Under the pieces are notes generated by a model. It was not told the DNA's origin, did not search any database, and worked only from the letters and a program-made list of their open reading frames with translations. Below are positions 23,588 to 29,917 of a stretch of DNA of 64,000 nucleotides, one piece after another. This DNA is from Actinomycetospora corticicola. GTDB taxonomy: Bacteria > Actinomycetota > Actinomycetes > Mycobacteriales > Pseudonocardiaceae. Positions within the stretch are counted from its first letter, which is position 1, and every line of letters begins with the position of its first letter. A program made the position numbers and the translations under genes. The stretch covers positions 2,728,001 through 2,792,000 of the forward strand of contig NZ_JACCBN010000001.1 in the NCBI RefSeq assembly GCF_013409505.1, read 5' to 3'.

Positions 23588-24532
23588 GTGGCAGAAGCTG
23601 CCGAGCTCGTCCTCGCCGGCCGCACGGTGCGGCTCACGAACCCGGACAGGGTCTATTTCTCGGCGCGCGGGGAGACGAAACTCGATCTCGCGCAGTACTA
23701 CGTCTCGGTGGGCGACGGCATCGTCAACGCGCTGCGGAACCGGCCGTGCATGATGCACCGGTTCCCGAGCGGCGTGGACGGCGACAAGGTCCACCAGAAG
23801 CGGCTGCCGAAGGGGGCGCCGGACTGGGTGCCCACGGTGCGGGTGCACTTCCCGCGCTACCACCGCACCGCCGACGAGCTCTGCGTCTCCTCGATCGCCG
23901 ACGTCGTGTGGGCCGTGCAGATGTCGACCGTCGAGTTCCACCCCTGGAACTCCCGGGCCGCCGACGTCGAGTCGCCCGACGAGTGGCGCATCGACCTCGA
24001 CCCGATGGAGGGCGTCGGGTTCGACACGGTGCGGCAGGTCGCGACGGTGGTGCACGAGGTGCTCGACGAACTCGGGGCCGTCGGTTTCCCGAAGACGTCG
24101 GGCGGCTCCGGCCTGCACGTCTACGTGCGGATTCGCCCGGAGCACTCCTTCGGCGAGGTGCGGCGGGCCGCGTGGGCCTTCGCACGCGAGGTCGAGCGGC
24201 GGGCCCCGCAGCTGGTGACGACGGCCTGGTGGCGCAAGGACCGCGAGCCCGGCACCGTCTTCGTCGACTACAACCAGAACACCCGCGACCACACGATCGC
24301 GAGCGCCTACTCGGTCCGCGGCACCCCGCTGGGCATCGTCTCGGCGCCCCTTCGTTGGGACGAGATCGCCGCGGCGGAACCGGGCGACTTCACGATCGCG
24401 ACGATGCCCGCGCGCTACGCCGAGCTCGGCGACCTGCACGCGGATATCGACGAGGCCGTCTTCGACCTCGCGCCCCTGCTGGAGTGGGCCGACCGCGACG
24501 AGGCGCCGGAACCGGACGCCCCGGAGGTCTGA
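23588..24532 (+). CDS. Stand-alone LigD-type primase-polymerase domain
   Basis: 314 residues, matching the polymerase domain of LigD (archaeo-eukaryotic primase fold) used in non-homologous end joining. Seen: LTNPDRVYF at the start, MHRFPSGVDGDKVHQKRLPK around 55, catalytic D-x-D in WRIDLDPMEGVGFD near 135, KTSGGSGLHVYVRI near 170, and VFVDYNQNTRDHTIASAYSV near 220. No ligase or nuclease domain is fused, and no Ku gene is nearby. It would add nucleotides at double-strand break ends. The GTG at 23588 gives MAEAAELVL. A 19-bp palindrome follows the stop. Confidence 0.92.
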   Translation: MAEAAELVLAGRTVRLTNPDRVYFSARGETKLDLAQYYVSVGDGIVNALRNRPCMMHRFPSGVDGDKVHQKRLPKGAPDWVPTVRVHFPRYHRTADELCVSSIADVVWAVQMSTVEFHPWNSRAADVESPDEWRIDLDPMEGVGFDTVRQVATVVHEVLDELGAVGFPKTSGGSGLHVYVRIRPEHSFGEVRRAAWAFAREVERRAPQLVTTAWWRKDREPGTVFVDYNQNTRDHTIASAYSVRGTPLGIVSAPLRWDEIAAAEPGDFTIATMPARYAELGDLHADIDEAVFDLAPLLEWADRDEAPEPDAPEV

Positions 24533-24549
24533 ATCCCCGAGGTCTGATT

Positions 24550-24587
24550 CCCGACGACGGGTGCCGCGCGCGGCACCCGTCGTCGGG
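24550..24587. terminator. 38-base perfect palindrome between convergent genes
   Basis: Arms of 19 bp meet without a spacer: CCCGACGACGGGTGCCGCG and its exact complement. The outer 13 bases (CCCGACGACGGGT) are identical to the arm of the hairpin at 35657. It separates the LigD-type polymerase gene from the secreted protein gene on the other strand. Confidence 0.75.
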
Positions 24588-24594
24588 ACGGGGT

Positions 24595-25083
24595 TCAGCT
24601 GCCGGACAGGGCGTCGAGCGCCGACAGGTCGGGCGTGAGCGCCTCGGGGCTCAGGCCCTGCGAGAGGTCCTCGGCGGTGGGCAGGCCCTGGGTCAGGGTG
24701 TCGCCGAAGGCGGTCGGGTCGGTGGGGAGCTTCGTGAGGTCGGCGAAGCCGGCGAGGTCCCCGGCCGACGGGATCGCGTCGAGACCCTGGGTGAGACCCG
24801 GGATGTCGGCGACGGAGTCGAACCCCGGCACGGCGTCGAGGCCCGGGATGTCCACCCCGGCGACGTTCTTCGCGACGGCGGCCGCGGCGTTGGCCGCGCT
24901 CAGCCCGGCCTGCGCGCCGGCGAGACCGGCCTGCGTCCCGGCCGTGGCGGCGGCACCGGCGGCGGCGACCGCCCCGTCGACCCCGGGCGGCGCGACCGGC
25001 GCGGCGGACGCGATCCCGGCGAAGGACGTGAGGCCGGCCCCGAGCACCGCGGCTCCGACGACGGCACGGCGGACGATCGACAT
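24595..25083 (-). CDS. Secreted Ala/Leu/Pro-rich protein
   Basis: 162 residues. A clear signal peptide (MSIVRRAVVGAAVLGAGLTS... to A-S-A before A-P-V-A-P-P) is followed by an Ala-rich stretch (VAAAGAAATAGTQAGLAGAQ) and short repeats of the form D-I/A-P-G-L/F-D (GVDIPGLDAVPGFDSVADIP). No cysteines or catalytic motif. The ATG at 25083 has AGGGGGAAC upstream. It is the third of three consecutive secreted-protein genes on this strand but does not share the N-terminal domain of the other two. Function unknown; likely cell-surface or extracellular. Confidence 0.75.
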   Translation of the reverse strand: MSIVRRAVVGAAVLGAGLTSFAGIASAAPVAPPGVDGAVAAAGAAATAGTQAGLAGAQAGLSAANAAAAVAKNVAGVDIPGLDAVPGFDSVADIPGLTQGLDAIPSAGDLAGFADLTKLPTDPTAFGDTLTQGLPTAEDLSQGLSPEALTPDLSALDALSGS

Positions 25084-25228
25084 GTCAGTTCCCCCTGGCA
25101 TGAGGCCCGATCACGGACTGCGATCGGACGTGACGGAGCGTCCAACGGGGGCTACACGGCGCTGGTACGGATCTCGACGCCACGTGATCAGATCGGGCGA
25201 GGAACCCCTGTTGCGGGGCGGGACGACG

Positions 25229-25269
25229 ACGGGCCCGACCCCGCTCGCGAGGAGCGGGGCCGGGCCCGT
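25229..25269 (-). terminator. 18-bp hairpin after the basic-tailed secreted protein
   Basis: ACGGGCCCGACCCCGCTC and its complement, with one G-U type mismatch and a five-base loop, 23 bases after the stop at 25292. Confidence 0.75.
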
Positions 25270-25291
25270 GGTGCCGTGCGGGTGGATCAGG

Positions 25292-26611
25292 TCAGAGGCC
25301 GGACACGACCGACTTCGCCGCGCTCCTGGCCTCCTTCGCCGCCGACTTCGCCGCGCTCTTGGCCTCCTTGGCGGCCGACTTCGCCGCGCTCTTGGCCTCC
25401 TTGGCCGCCGACTTCGCCTCGCTCTTGGCTTCCTTGGCGGCCGACCTCGCCTCGGCCTTGGCCTCCTTGGCCGCCGACTTCGCCTCGGCCTTGGCCTCCT
25501 TGGCGGCCGACTTCGCCTCGGCCTTGGCCTCCTTGGCCGCCGACTTCGCCGCCGAGGAGGACGAGGACGACGAGGACGACGTGGAGGTCGAGCCCGAGTC
25601 CTGGCTCAGGACCGGGAGGTTGGCGTCCACCAGACTGCCGGTGCTCCCGCTGCCCGAGTCCTGGCTCAGGACGGGGGCGTTTGCGCTCACGAGGCTCTCG
25701 CCGGTGCCACTCGTCCCGGAGTCCTGGCTGAGCACCGGGACGTTGGCGTCGAGCACGCTCGCGGTCCCGCCGGTGCTGCCCGAGTCCTGGCTGCCCACCG
25801 GGATGTTCGCGTTGATCAGGCTGCCGAGCCCGGAGGTGCCGGACCCCTGGCTGAGCACCGGGATGTTGGCGTTGATCAGGCTGCCGAGGTCGGTGCCCGA
25901 GCCCTGGCTCAGGATCGGGAGGTTCAGGTTCAGCAGCGAGCCGAGGTCCAGGCCGCCCAGGCCGGTATCGGTCCCGGTGCCCGTCCCCGTCCCCGTGCCG
26001 GTGCCGGTGCCGGTGCCGGTGCCTCCCGTGCCCGGGAAACCGCCCGGACCGAAGGGGAAGTCCGGACCGAAGGGGAAGTCGGGACCAAAGGGCGACCCGT
26101 CCGGCCCGAACGGGAAGTCGGTCCCGAAGGCGTCGACCAGAGACCCGTTGTAGGCCTCGGCCTGGGCCCTTGCCTGGTCGATGGCGTCCTGCACCGCCGC
26201 GGCGAAGTCGGCCGGCGAGAGCCCCGTGGAGGGGATCGTGACCGTCCCCGGCAGGGTCCCGCCGGTCGTGGTGCCCGTGCCGGTGGTGGTGCCGGTCGTC
26301 GTGCCCGTGGTGGTGCCGTTCGTGGTCGTCGTGGTCGTGTCGTTGACCGTCGTCGTGTTGCCGTTGACGATGGTGCCCCCGAGCAGGGCGACGTTGTTCC
26401 CGCTGGCCACGACGTTGCCATTGCCGATGTCGCTGATGTTGGTGGCGGTGATCCTGGTGTTCCCGCCGGTGACGTCCCCGAGGCCGGAGCCCGTGGTCGT
26501 GTTCGTGGCCGTGATGGTGTTGACCGAATCGGCCGCCGCAACCCCCGCGGTGGTCCCGAGTCCGGTGACGACGATCGCGGCCGCTGCGGCGGCCCGACGT
26601 GCGGCATTCAT
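25292..26611 (-). CDS. Secreted repeat protein with basic Lys-Ala tail
   Basis: 439 residues. Order of regions: signal peptide (MNAARRAAAAAAIVVTGLGT, cleavage near V-A-A-A-D); an Asn/Thr/Gly-rich domain (residues ~30-90: SDIGNGNVVASGNNVALLGG, TIVNGNTTTVND); a Thr-rich linker; a helix LSPADFAAAVQDAIDQARAQ; F-P-F-G-P repeats; a Gly-Thr run; seven copies of a ~17-residue unit with core N-x-P-V-L-S-Q-D-S-G; a Ser run; and about 85 residues of SAAKEAKAEAK repeats, strongly positive. The ATG at 26611 has AGGAG upstream. It is the paralogue of the gene at 26935-28425, whose tail is acidic instead. No homologous enzyme domain is recognised. The tail recalls the Lys-rich end of mycobacterial HBHA, which binds polyanions (analogy only). 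Confidence 0.85.
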   Translation of the reverse strand: MNAARRAAAAAAIVVTGLGTTAGVAAADSVNTITATNTTTGSGLGDVTGGNTRITATNISDIGNGNVVASGNNVALLGGTIVNGNTTTVNDTTTTTTNGTTTGTTTGTTTGTGTTTGGTLPGTVTIPSTGLSPADFAAAVQDAIDQARAQAEAYNGSLVDAFGTDFPFGPDGSPFGPDFPFGPDFPFGPGGFPGTGGTGTGTGTGTGTGTGTGTDTGLGGLDLGSLLNLNLPILSQGSGTDLGSLINANIPVLSQGSGTSGLGSLINANIPVGSQDSGSTGGTASVLDANVPVLSQDSGTSGTGESLVSANAPVLSQDSGSGSTGSLVDANLPVLSQDSGSTSTSSSSSSSSSAAKSAAKEAKAEAKSAAKEAKAEAKSAAKEAKAEARSAAKEAKSEAKSAAKEAKSAAKSAAKEAKSAAKSAAKEARSAAKSVVSGL

Positions 26612-26639
26612 GGATCGACTCCTAGATCGCAGGCTTTTG

Positions 26640-26677
26640 GCGACTCCCCGCAGTCGCTTGATGACACAGAGCTAATC
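26640..26677 (-). promoter_or_regulatory. Conserved upstream element, copy 1
   Basis: On the minus strand it reads GATTAGCTCTGTGTCA, then a hairpin GCGACT-GCGGGG-AGTCGC. The same block occurs at 28455-28492 before the paralogue, with two or three changes. The AT-rich TTAGCT may be part of a -10 box and the hairpin part of the 5' leader (inference). Confidence 0.6.
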
Positions 26678-26863
26678 GCCCGTTCGGCCCAGCCCGCGAC
26701 CGGAGAGCCGCGAGGTCACCCCGTTCGTGTGAGCACTCCACCGGCGAGTCCGTCCGGCAATCGTGTGAGATCACGACAGTGCGTCGACCGCGTCTCCGTG
26801 TCATCGCGCCGTCTTTGCCCGGTTGGGGTCACCCCGTCCCCATCGACGTTCCGCCCCGTCACG

Positions 26864-26912
26864 CACGAGGGCCCCGCCTCGCACCTCTCGGGTGCGGGGC
26901 GGGGCCCTCGTG
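26864..26912 (-). terminator. 22-bp hairpin after the acidic-tailed secreted protein
   Basis: CACGAGGGCCCCGCCTCGCA... pairs with the complementary arm ending at 26912, with one wobble and a short TCTC loop, 22 bases after the stop at 26935. Confidence 0.8.
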
Positions 26913-26934
26913 TGGTCGTGCTCGGAACGCAGGG

Positions 26935-28425
26935 TCAGAGGAGATCCGACGCGCTGTCGACGACGTCGGAGACCGTGTCGCCGGCGTCGCTGTCGCCCGA
27001 GTCGCTGTCGCTCGAACCGCTGTCGCTCGAGTCGCCGTCGCCCGAGTCGCTCAGGACCGGGATGTCGACGTCGGCGACGTCGTTGTCCGAGCTGCTCTCA
27101 TCCGACGAGTCGGAGTCGCTCAGCACCGGGACGTCGACGTCGGCGACGTCGTTGTCCGAGCTGCTCTCATCCGACGAGTCGGAGTCGCTCAGCACCGGGA
27201 CGTCGACGTCGGCGACGTCGTTGTCCGAGCTGCTCTCGTCCGACGAGTCGGAGTCGCTCAGCACCGGGACGTCGGCGTCGATCAGGTCGTCGTCGGACCC
27301 GGTCCCGCCGTCGGAGTCGCCACCGATGGGCAGGTCGGCGTCGATCAGGTCGTCGTCGGACGCGGAGCCGCCGTCGGTGTCTCCACCGATCGGGAGGTCG
27401 ACGTCCACTCCGTCGTCGTCGGAGCCGGCGCCACCGTCGGCGTCCCCACCGATCGGGAGGTCGACGTCCACCCCGTCGTCGTCGGAGCCGGCTCCACCGT
27501 CACCGGGACCGTCACCGAGCGGGTCCCCGAGGTCGATGCCGCCGTCGTCACCGGAGCCCGGCAGGTCGCCGGGGAGACCCGGCAGCCCGCCGTCGTCGGT
27601 GCCACCGTCGTCGGTGCCGCCGTCGTCGGTGCCACCACCGGTACCGGGCAGGCCTCCGTCGTCGCCACCGGTGCCGGTGCCCGGCAGGCCCGGGAACCCG
27701 CCCGGACCGAACGGGAAGTCCTCGCCGAAGGGCGAACCGCCCGGTCCGAACGGGAAGTCCTCGCCGAAGGGCGATCCACCCGGCCCGAACGGGAAGTCGT
27801 CCCCGAACAGGTCACCGAGGTCGGGGGCCGTCGGGGTCGTGCCGCCGCCCGGCGTCGGACCGCCGCTGCCCGGCAGGTCGGGCAGGTCGGGCAGGTCGGG
27901 CGTGCCCGGAAGGGTCGGGAAGGTCGGGAACGTGCCGACCCCGCCGCCCGCGTAGAAGTCACGGAGCGCCTCGGCGTAGACGCGGGCCGCATCGGCCTGC
28001 GCCTGGGCCTGGGCCCGGGCCTGGTCGATGGCCTCCTGCACCGAGGCGGCGAAGTCGGCCGGCGAGAGCCCGCCGGACGGGATCGTCACGACGCCGAGGG
28101 CGTCGGCGGCGACCGTCGGGGTGGCCGTCCCGGTGGTGGTGGTCGTGGTGCTCGTGTCGTTGACCGTGGTGGTGTTCCCGTTCACGATCGTCCCGCCCAG
28201 GGCGACGTTGTTCCCGGAGAGGATCCGGTTCCCGTTGCCGATGTTGCTGGTGTTGCGGGCCGTGATGGTGATGTCTCCGCCGGTGGTGTCCCCCAGACCG
28301 TTACCGACGGTGGTGTTGGTCGCCGAGATGCGGTTCTGCGCATCGGCGGAGGCGAGTCCGGTCGTCGTACCCAGACCCGTGACGACGATCGCGGCGGCAG
28401 CGACTGCGCGGCGTGCGGCGTTCAA
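26935..28425 (-). CDS. Secreted repeat protein with acidic Asp-Ser tail
   Basis: 496 residues. The N-terminal half parallels the protein at 25292-26611: signal peptide (L-N-A-A-R-R-A-V-A-A-A-A-I-V-V-T-G-L-G-T, cleavage near L-A-S-A-D), the Asn/Thr/Gly domain (TSNIGNGNRILSGNNVALGG), a Thr run, LSPADFAASVQEAIDQARAQ, a Gly/Pro/Leu linker with DFPFGPGGSPFGE repeats. The rest is acidic: S-D-D-D-G-V-D-V-D-L-P-I-G-G-D repeats, then three 23-residue units with core PVLSDSDSSDESSSDNDV, then an S/D-rich end. The start is a TTG at 28425: AAGGAG stands nine bases upstream, and TTG-AAC-GCC-GCA aligns codon by codon with ATG-AAT-GCC-GCA of the paralogue. Longer ATG starts upstream would cross the conserved promoter element. 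Function unknown; the tail could bind calcium or a basic partner. Confidence 0.83.
   Translation of the reverse strand: MNAARRAVAAAAIVVTGLGTTTGLASADAQNRISATNTTVGNGLGDTTGGDITITARNTSNIGNGNRILSGNNVALGGTIVNGNTTTVNDTSTTTTTTGTATPTVAADALGVVTIPSGGLSPADFAASVQEAIDQARAQAQAQADAARVYAEALRDFYAGGGVGTFPTFPTLPGTPDLPDLPDLPGSGGPTPGGGTTPTAPDLGDLFGDDFPFGPGGSPFGEDFPFGPGGSPFGEDFPFGPGGFPGLPGTGTGGDDGGLPGTGGGTDDGGTDDGGTDDGGLPGLPGDLPGSGDDGGIDLGDPLGDGPGDGGAGSDDDGVDVDLPIGGDADGGAGSDDDGVDVDLPIGGDTDGGSASDDDLIDADLPIGGDSDGGTGSDDDLIDADVPVLSDSDSSDESSSDNDVADVDVPVLSDSDSSDESSSDNDVADVDVPVLSDSDSSDESSSDNDVADVDIPVLSDSGDGDSSDSGSSDSDSGDSDAGDTVSDVVDSASDLL
27050..27256 (-). repeat. Three tandem 69-base coding repeats
   Basis: Units 27050-27118, 27119-27187 and 27188-27256 are nearly identical (first unit differs at a few bases) and encode 23-residue acidic repeats in the secreted protein. 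A partial fourth unit starts at 27257. Copy number could change by slippage or recombination. Confidence 0.85.
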
Positions 28426-28454
28426 TGGATTCGGCTCCTTGGATCGCTGGCGTT

Positions 28455-28492
28455 GCGACTCCCCGCAGTCGCTTCGTGACACAGAGCTAATC
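28455..28492 (-). promoter_or_regulatory. Conserved upstream element, copy 2
   Basis: Same layout as 26640-26677: GATTAGCTCTGTGTCA followed by GCGACT-GCGGGG-AGTCGC on the minus strand, then about 22 bases to the AAGGAG of the TTG start. The spacing to the start codon is similar in both copies (about 29 bases), which supports joint regulation of the paralogues. Confidence 0.6.
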
Positions 28493-28651
28493 CCCGAACG
28501 GCCTAACGGCGCACCCGGCGCGAATCGGTAGGAACCGAGTGGGTGACGCAAACGGGCGAAACCGCGTACAACAAACGAGTGACGTCACAGGTCGACAACG
28601 ATCGGACAGCGACGAAATCGCGGTCGAGAACGCCCGAACCGGTCGAGAAGG

Positions 28652-29917
28652 TCAGAACCGGGTGCCGTTCCACGCCACCGAGGGCGCCGCGAGCATCCGG
28701 GCCAGGCGCGCCGCCGCGCCCGCCGAGCGTTCCTCGAGCCGGTTCGCCCGGACGAGGACCCGCGGGTCCACCCCACCGAGCACGACCGACCCGAGCGTCG
28801 GGGCCGGCATCCGGACATCGGGCTCCCCGGCGTCGGTCGTGACGGCGGGGGCGAGCCGGTCGTGCGTGTCGAGCCGCCAGCGTCCCCGGGCGTGGCCGAG
28901 CGGGTCGGTGACCTCGAGCACGAGGGCGTCCTCGGTCGGGTAGCGGCGGGCGCCGAGGAGGGCGGGTACGTCGAGGACCCGCAGCCACAGCATCGGGCGG
29001 CTCTCCCCGAGCACCACCGCCCGCGGGTCGGTGAACAGCCACGGCAGCGGTTCGTCGACCGATGCGTCGGACCAGGTCACCGTGCCGATGAGGTCCTGCG
29101 AGCACAGGTGGCGCCAGAGCTCGGTGTAGGCGGTCGGGGTGAGGGCCTGGAGGTCCACCACACCGAGCGTCCCCGCGCCGGAGGCGTACCAGCTCTCCTC
29201 GACCCGGAGGACGACGTAGCCACCCGGTCGGCCGTCGTCGTCGCGCCAGACGACGACCTGGCGGAGCCGGTCGGGCTCCAGGCCGTTCCACGGTCCCGCA
29301 CCCACCAGCAGTTGGTCCCACTGCGACGCCAGCCGCTCCAGCGCACCCGGATGGCGACGCCGGGCGCGGTCGTGGAGCGGGCGGGTGAGGGCGAGCGCGG
29401 CGTCCGGCCGGTCGACGACCTCGAGGGTGCCGCGCGGCCCGGCGTCCCGGAAGCGGGCCCGGGCGGTGTCGACGGTGAGCCGACGGGAGTGGGTCGCGAG
29501 CCCGAACCCCCACCGCTCGTAGAGCGCACCCTGGGTGGAGGTGAGCACGGCGGCCGCGGCGCCGGCGCGCGCGGCGGCGCCGAGGTCCTCGCTGAGCAGG
29601 CGGTCGGTCAGACCCCGGCGGCGATGGGTGGACCGCACGCCGATGCCGGTGATCGCGTCGGCGGGCACGTCGCCGCCGGGCACCGTGAGACGGGCGTCCC
29701 AGGAGCGCAGGGTGGCGACCGGGGTCGGGTCGGGGTCGGCGTACGCGCCCCGGAGCCGGTTGCCCTCGAAGGCGACGCCGATCCGGGCGAGCAGCTCGGC
29801 GTCCAGGCGCGGCCCGAGGAACGCGGCCAGCTGGGCGCGCGTCCACGCCACGGTGCCCGCGTCCGAGGAACCCTCGACGACCCGGGGCGAGAACGTCCGC
29901 ACCGCCGGCGTCACCAC
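28652..29917 (-). CDS. Eis-like GNAT N-acetyltransferase
   Basis: 421 residues in the three-part Eis layout: an N-terminal GNAT domain (ITGIGVRSTHRRRGLTDRLL with the acetyl-CoA loop R-R-R-G-L at residues ~100-110, then L-Y-E-R-W-G-F-G), a central GNAT-like domain, and an SCP2-like C-terminal domain ending W-N-G-T-R-F with the terminal carboxylate typical of the family. Eis proteins form hexamers and acetylate amines, including aminoglycosides; the substrate here is unknown. The GTG at 29917 (or the next GTG at 29914) lies ten bases or less after the rlmN stop, with GGGGGA upstream. Probably co-transcribed with rlmN. Confidence 0.9.
   Translation of the reverse strand: MVTPAVRTFSPRVVEGSSDAGTVAWTRAQLAAFLGPRLDAELLARIGVAFEGNRLRGAYADPDPTPVATLRSWDARLTVPGGDVPADAITGIGVRSTHRRRGLTDRLLSEDLGAAARAGAAAAVLTSTQGALYERWGFGLATHSRRLTVDTARARFRDAGPRGTLEVVDRPDAALALTRPLHDRARRRHPGALERLASQWDQLLVGAGPWNGLEPDRLRQVVVWRDDDGRPGGYVVLRVEESWYASGAGTLGVVDLQALTPTAYTELWRHLCSQDLIGTVTWSDASVDEPLPWLFTDPRAVVLGESRPMLWLRVLDVPALLGARRYPTEDALVLEVTDPLGHARGRWRLDTHDRLAPAVTTDAGEPDVRMPAPTLGSVVLGGVDPRVLVRANRLEERSAGAAARLARMLAAPSVAWNGTRF

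Follow-up and report, generated by a model that had tools for sequence, protein, structure and literature searches.

The window analysed here is a stretch of 64,000 nucleotides from the genome of Actinomycetospora corticicola (6.17 Mb, a single contig; G000 below), whose nearest relatives are A. termitidis, A. chiangmaiensis DSM 45062 and A. sp. NBRC 106378. On the minus strand of the window, two genes for secreted proteins, B and A, follow each other head to tail, and a third gene, C, comes after them. Their features are listed here in window coordinates.

26935–28425, minus strand: gene B, secreted protein of 496 aa with an acidic tail, TTG start, orthologues in four other species
28455–28495, minus strand: conserved B leader GGGGATTAGCTCTGTGTCACGAAGCGACTGCGGGGAGTCGC, with the 6-bp hairpin GCGACT(GCGGGG)AGTCGC
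28162–28344, minus strand: B Asn/Gly domain, residues 28–88
27919–28092, minus strand: B helix segment, SPADFAASVQEAIDQARAQ...
27706–27795, minus strand: B FPFG/SPFG repeats, residues 211–240
26938–27558, minus strand: B acidic tail, repeats of 21–23 residues with a D-x-x-D-x-D-x-P-(V/I) core, net charge −68
25292–26611, minus strand: gene A, secreted protein of 439 aa with an Ala-Lys tail
26640–26680, minus strand: conserved A leader, the same element as in B, with one mismatch to the pattern
26345–26530, minus strand: A Asn/Gly domain, residues 28–89
26114–26245, minus strand: A helix segment
25592–25945, minus strand: A repeat region, six repeats of ~20 residues with a LINANIPVLSQ-type core, weakly acidic
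25295–25555, minus strand: A basic tail, 11-residue SAAKEAK(A/S)(E/A)AK repeats, net charge +11, this species only
24595–25101, minus strand: gene C, small Ala/Leu-rich secreted protein, at the B locus in all five species that carry B

A and B have in common a signal peptide (MNAARRA-AAAAIVVTGLGTT), an Asn/Gly domain of ~61 residues that is 74% identical between them, an SPADFAA (PADFAA) helix, FPFG/SPFG repeats (four in A, five in B) and a core of ~17 residues that is repeated six times in A and seven times in B (four PVLS and three PIGG versions in the latter). This shared architecture in two adjacent open reading frames had been described in the original prediction and is confirmed in every element. 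The TTG start of B is preceded by AAGGAG and recurs in three of the four orthologues (G001, G014 and G016), while in the fourth (G006) the codon at this position is ATG. Third-position GC in the stated frame is 0.98 for the A tail and 0.92 for the B tail, which supports the reading frame of both. These features are not a product of chance, as the DNA tandem repeats score 369 and 446 and orthologues of B are retained in four further species.

The tails also agree with their first description, as ~85 residues of Ala-Lys in A and ~200 residues of Asp/Ser in B. The A tail spans residues 353–439 (87 residues; Ala 41%, Lys 23%, Glu 13%; net +11) with a period of 11 residues, and the B tail residues 290–496 (207 residues; Asp 31%, Ser 20%; net −68). 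Calling A strongly basic is correct for its tail only; the mature protein as a whole is negative, with a net charge of −10 and a pI of 4.6. Past its last FPFG, B holds 77 acidic residues and no Lys or Arg, and both basic residues are absent from this region in five of five species. The net charge of the region is −77 in G000, −76 in G001, −94 in G006 and −68 in G016, a range that covers the four complete genes, the B gene of G014 being cut by a contig end. The acidity of the B tail is conserved across five Actinomycetospora species.

These five species (G000, G001, G006, G014 and G016) share the gene order rlmN, GNAT, B–(A)–C, LigD-like, CoA-disulphide-reductase-like, in which the flanking genes were named by reading their sequences, with no family search behind them. 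One culturable carrier of B is A. chiangmaiensis DSM 45062. C has no family match. In G006 and G016, B is directly followed by C and A is absent. A gene that we call A', with the same domain and a Gly-rich tail devoid of Lys and Arg, neighbours B in G001 and is found at the end of a second contig in G014. The space that separates GNAT from the LigD-like gene (24532–28652; L118, L121 and L122) varies within the genus. It is close to nil in eight congeners, where the two genes adjoin at a distance of 3–62 bp, it holds a Ser/Thr protein kinase gene in three (G002, G012 and G017), and it holds the B–(A)–C block in five; the comparison does not extend to the G007 insert, nor to G003, whose contig does not show the LigD side. 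The distribution fits a gain of the block in one clade at a gene-accepting spot, and a loss from the other congeners could also have occurred.

The original prediction took A and B for a matched pair that binds through its oppositely charged tails and forms a coat or coacervate. In this species the tails do carry charges of +11 and −68, the leader common to both genes means that they may be co-expressed, and it has been suggested that short chaplins associate more readily when they are oppositely charged (PMC3079736). However, neither the pairing nor the opposition of charge extends to the relatives, since two of them have B without A and the A' tails of the two others, G001 and G014, are uncharged. 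Even in G000, +11 against −68 is far from balanced, and A is net negative as a whole. We regard such a pair as very improbable. As a basic-tailed partner exists in this species only, the opposite charges of A and B are probably incidental.

The Ala-Lys tail was found in G000 alone and is absent from all relatives. It is encoded by repeats of a 33-bp unit (92% match, 7.4 copies), and both its DNA and its distribution would suit a neutral by-product of repeat expansion without a selected function. Against this stand the retained open frame with its codon-position bias and the regular amphipathic pattern of 11 residues, so that a neutral origin appears possible but doubtful. It would concern the A tail alone and is compatible with the surface-coat interpretation set out below. 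In its Ala/Lys/Glu composition and amphipathic 11-residue period, the A tail is similar to repeats of the group 3 LEA or apolipoprotein type; it differs from group 3 LEA proteins in that it sits on a secreted protein and is known from one species. Pfam gave a weak apolipoprotein match (E 0.07), no LEA family model in Pfam or NCBIfam matched the tail, and a PDB sequence search with it returned nothing. NCBIfam matches of A (valine–tRNA ligase and others) reflect Ala-Lys composition only and lie far under the cut-off, and a weak PHROGs match to 15 repeat residues of A (E 0.002) was disregarded.

The ~61-residue domain is not confined to A and B. An array of genes for small secreted proteins elsewhere on the chromosome (G000:C1:3781–3787 kb) also encodes it, and signal peptides are present, as judged by sequence, in all family members. 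Array-type members measure 97–146 aa and have two Cys in 39 of 39 cases, whereas A, A' and B are Cys-less. In G000, the minus strand of L042:5290–10648 (G000:C1:3781289–3786647) encodes seven small two-Cys proteins that are secreted and carry the A/B domain; within it, L042:8957–9415 holds at least one further gene for a small secreted protein, which has a signal peptide of this kind and a divergent body. On one side, the array has metG and upp as neighbours in six species; on the opposite side, seven species have the same coiled-coil gene. The array occupies the same chromosomal place (on the metG–upp side) in species down to G015. A single-sequence search found the family in 7 of 18 members of the genus and gave no match in the other 11, where divergent members could have been missed because only one query sequence was used.

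Outside the genus, a profile of the domain found no clear member in ~400 genomes from the order and ~395 from the class, and a helix profile returned only one weak match (E 4e-4). Pfam and NCBIfam gave no usable match and a PDB sequence search with the domain returned nothing, which agrees with the earlier statement that no described family is recognisable. On these searches, the A/B domain family is undescribed and limited to Actinomycetospora. AlphaFold models of the domain were unconfident for both its Cys-less and its Cys-bearing type (mean pLDDT 42 and 41); such low values are compatible with disorder or self-assembly but are no proof of either.

In the family tree, A, A' and B form a single clade (support 100/95), which bears out the proposed descent of A and B from one ancestor. 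This clade is nested within the family as the sister (98/93) of an array paralogue that ends in FFGPGFPFN, from which the FPFG repeats could plausibly have arisen. As the tree was midpoint-rooted and the alignment is short, a direction from the array to A and B can only be inferred. Because A pairs with B, at 100/96, and not with A', it may be a recent duplicate of B or else an A' gene whose front has been overwritten by gene conversion.

A 41-nt element, GGGGATTAGCTCTGYGTCAYNNAGCGACTGCGGGGAGTCGC, lies upstream of all the A, A' and B genes that were read, and the scanned genomes contain no other instance of it. This near-invariant common leader suggests that A, A' and B are co-regulated. Many genes of the array carry, close to their start, a hairpin that is spelled differently and has GGGG in its loop, such as GATTC(GGGG)GAATC, TATTC(GGGG)GAATA or TGTATC(GGGG)GATACA. 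With the A/B leaders included, 22 of the 45 upstream regions have a GGGG-loop hairpin, while shuffles gave 1.4 on average and 6 at most; as the motif was picked after looking and the genes are related, this count is a lead and not a firm statistic. Examples in the array are found at L042:8334–8345 and L042:6618–6629, and the stems vary between paralogues. The exact sequence ATTCGGGGGAAT has only two occurrences in the genome, and both lie in the array. We do not claim a riboswitch-like fold for the leaders, as the two leaders, folded as RNA strands of ~80 nt, are not unusually stable (z −0.5 for A and −1.7 for B) and give discordant structures. An Rfam search of 24500–29000 gave sub-threshold matches only, mostly of microRNA models to repeats.

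By analogy with known coat proteins, we propose that A and B are the long members of a secreted, disordered or self-assembling surface family that would work in a chaplin-like manner in a hyphal or spore coat. We give this reading a probability of about 45%. There is precedent for both kinds of coat, as long and short chaplins cover hyphae (PMC4255298, PMC3079736) and SspA of Actinoplanes is a predicted disordered spore-surface protein (PMC13293333). The signal peptides, the multi-copy array, the nested position of A and B, the distribution of Cys, the acidity of B and the common leader all speak for a coat; the lack of a C-terminal anchor, a domain less hydrophobic than that of Streptomyces chaplins and the 11 of 18 congeners without a match speak against it. 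In such a coat, the small two-Cys array proteins would be the short forms and A and B the long forms, an analogy with chaplins and not a claim of membership. At the surface, the Asn/Gly domain would link A and B to further members of the family, with the helix and the FPFG repeats serving as spacer or as a sticky stretch. The conserved Asp/Ser tail of B could project as a hydrated, cation-binding polyanionic brush. A would be a fast-changing paralogue with a species-specific tail, amphipathic Ala-Lys repeats of 11 residues here and Gly-rich sequence in the A' of relatives. Surface location, assembly, the brush function and any developmental role are what we infer from these features. The family is not essential to the way of life of the genus, as 11 of 18 members lack a match in the single-sequence search and some bearers also carry true chaplins.

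We searched the C-termini of A and B for a terminal LPxTG motif and a membrane helix and found no sortase signal or anchor; LPGTG does occur in B, at the internal residues 247 and 259. The two proteins could therefore be freely secreted, and the family might serve as matrix or cation-sequestering proteins, with the Asp/Ser tail binding Ca2+ or other metals and the His-rich stretches of the small members binding metal, and form no structural coat. The 77 acidic residues of B with no basic ones among them and the small members with up to seven His are in line with this idea, which we nevertheless consider unlikely: no known metal-binding family was matched in Pfam or NCBIfam, and the conserved Asn/Gly domain, the helix and the FPFG repeats would be left unexplained. 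It is similarly improbable that the family consists of highly diverged chaplins, true homologues of PF03777. In its favour, the small secreted two-Cys proteins come in multiple copies, and five G013/G015 members (GGDQVLAPINAC), hand-picked once the resemblance had been seen, reached an hhalign probability of 85% against a chaplin-repeat profile built from G028 chaplins (score 28.5; the best of 200 column shuffles scored 20.8). The full family profile is silent, however (2%), the G013/G015 members give no signal against the genus's own chaplin-like proteins (0.2%), and PF03777 matches none of 45 domain sequences, even at E ≤ 10. Chaplin homology of the family is not established.

A PF03777 search of all of G000 returned no match. 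Chaplin-like genes with PF03777 are present in other Actinomycetospora (L126, L127, L128, L072 and L073), with a patchy distribution in the genus and a classic short chaplin in G013 (L126). Mutual exclusion of the family and chaplins, which an initial comparison had suggested, was rejected, as G013 and G014 have both. Our literature search found no paper linking Actinomycetospora with chaplins, and beyond Streptomyces clear chaplin and rodlin equivalents are patchy in filamentous actinobacteria (PMC4255298). It is conceivable, if somewhat unlikely, that the coat proposed here is a system of Actinomycetospora's own and unrelated to chaplins, made up of the two-Cys array and long members with polyanionic or variable tails, and governed by GGGG-loop leader hairpins throughout the family.

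Chaplins, which assemble into amyloid and coat aerial hyphae, form with the rodlins the textbook hydrophobic sheath of Streptomyces. The genus-limited short and long secreted forms described here, in a genus where chaplins are patchy, are candidates, open to testing, for a coat that is separate or strongly altered. A, A' and B also demonstrate how completely closely related species can differ in the tails of such proteins. SspA of Actinoplanes missouriensis is, compared by description, a similar secreted, predicted-disordered structural protein at the surface of a sporulating actinomycete; it is sortase-anchored (PMC13293333), whereas A and B carry no sorting signal. With the chaplins (ChpA–H, PF03777) the family shares secretion, multiple copies, short and longer forms, and an occurrence in filamentous actinobacteria. 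Its domain differs from theirs in being Asn/Gly-rich and not hydrophobic. The ~40-residue domain of short chaplins has a GRAVY of 0.16–0.60 (PMC3079736), above the values for the domains of A (0.05), B (−0.31) and the small members (mean −0.39); the true short chaplin of G013 reaches −0.43 over its whole mature length. The long forms lack the sortase signal and second domain of long chaplins and end in charged or Gly-rich repeats. The Cys pattern is an ambiguous point of comparison: chaplins have two conserved Cys, absent in ChpE, and here the 39 small members have two and A, A' and B none, so that a Cys-less type exists in both groups.
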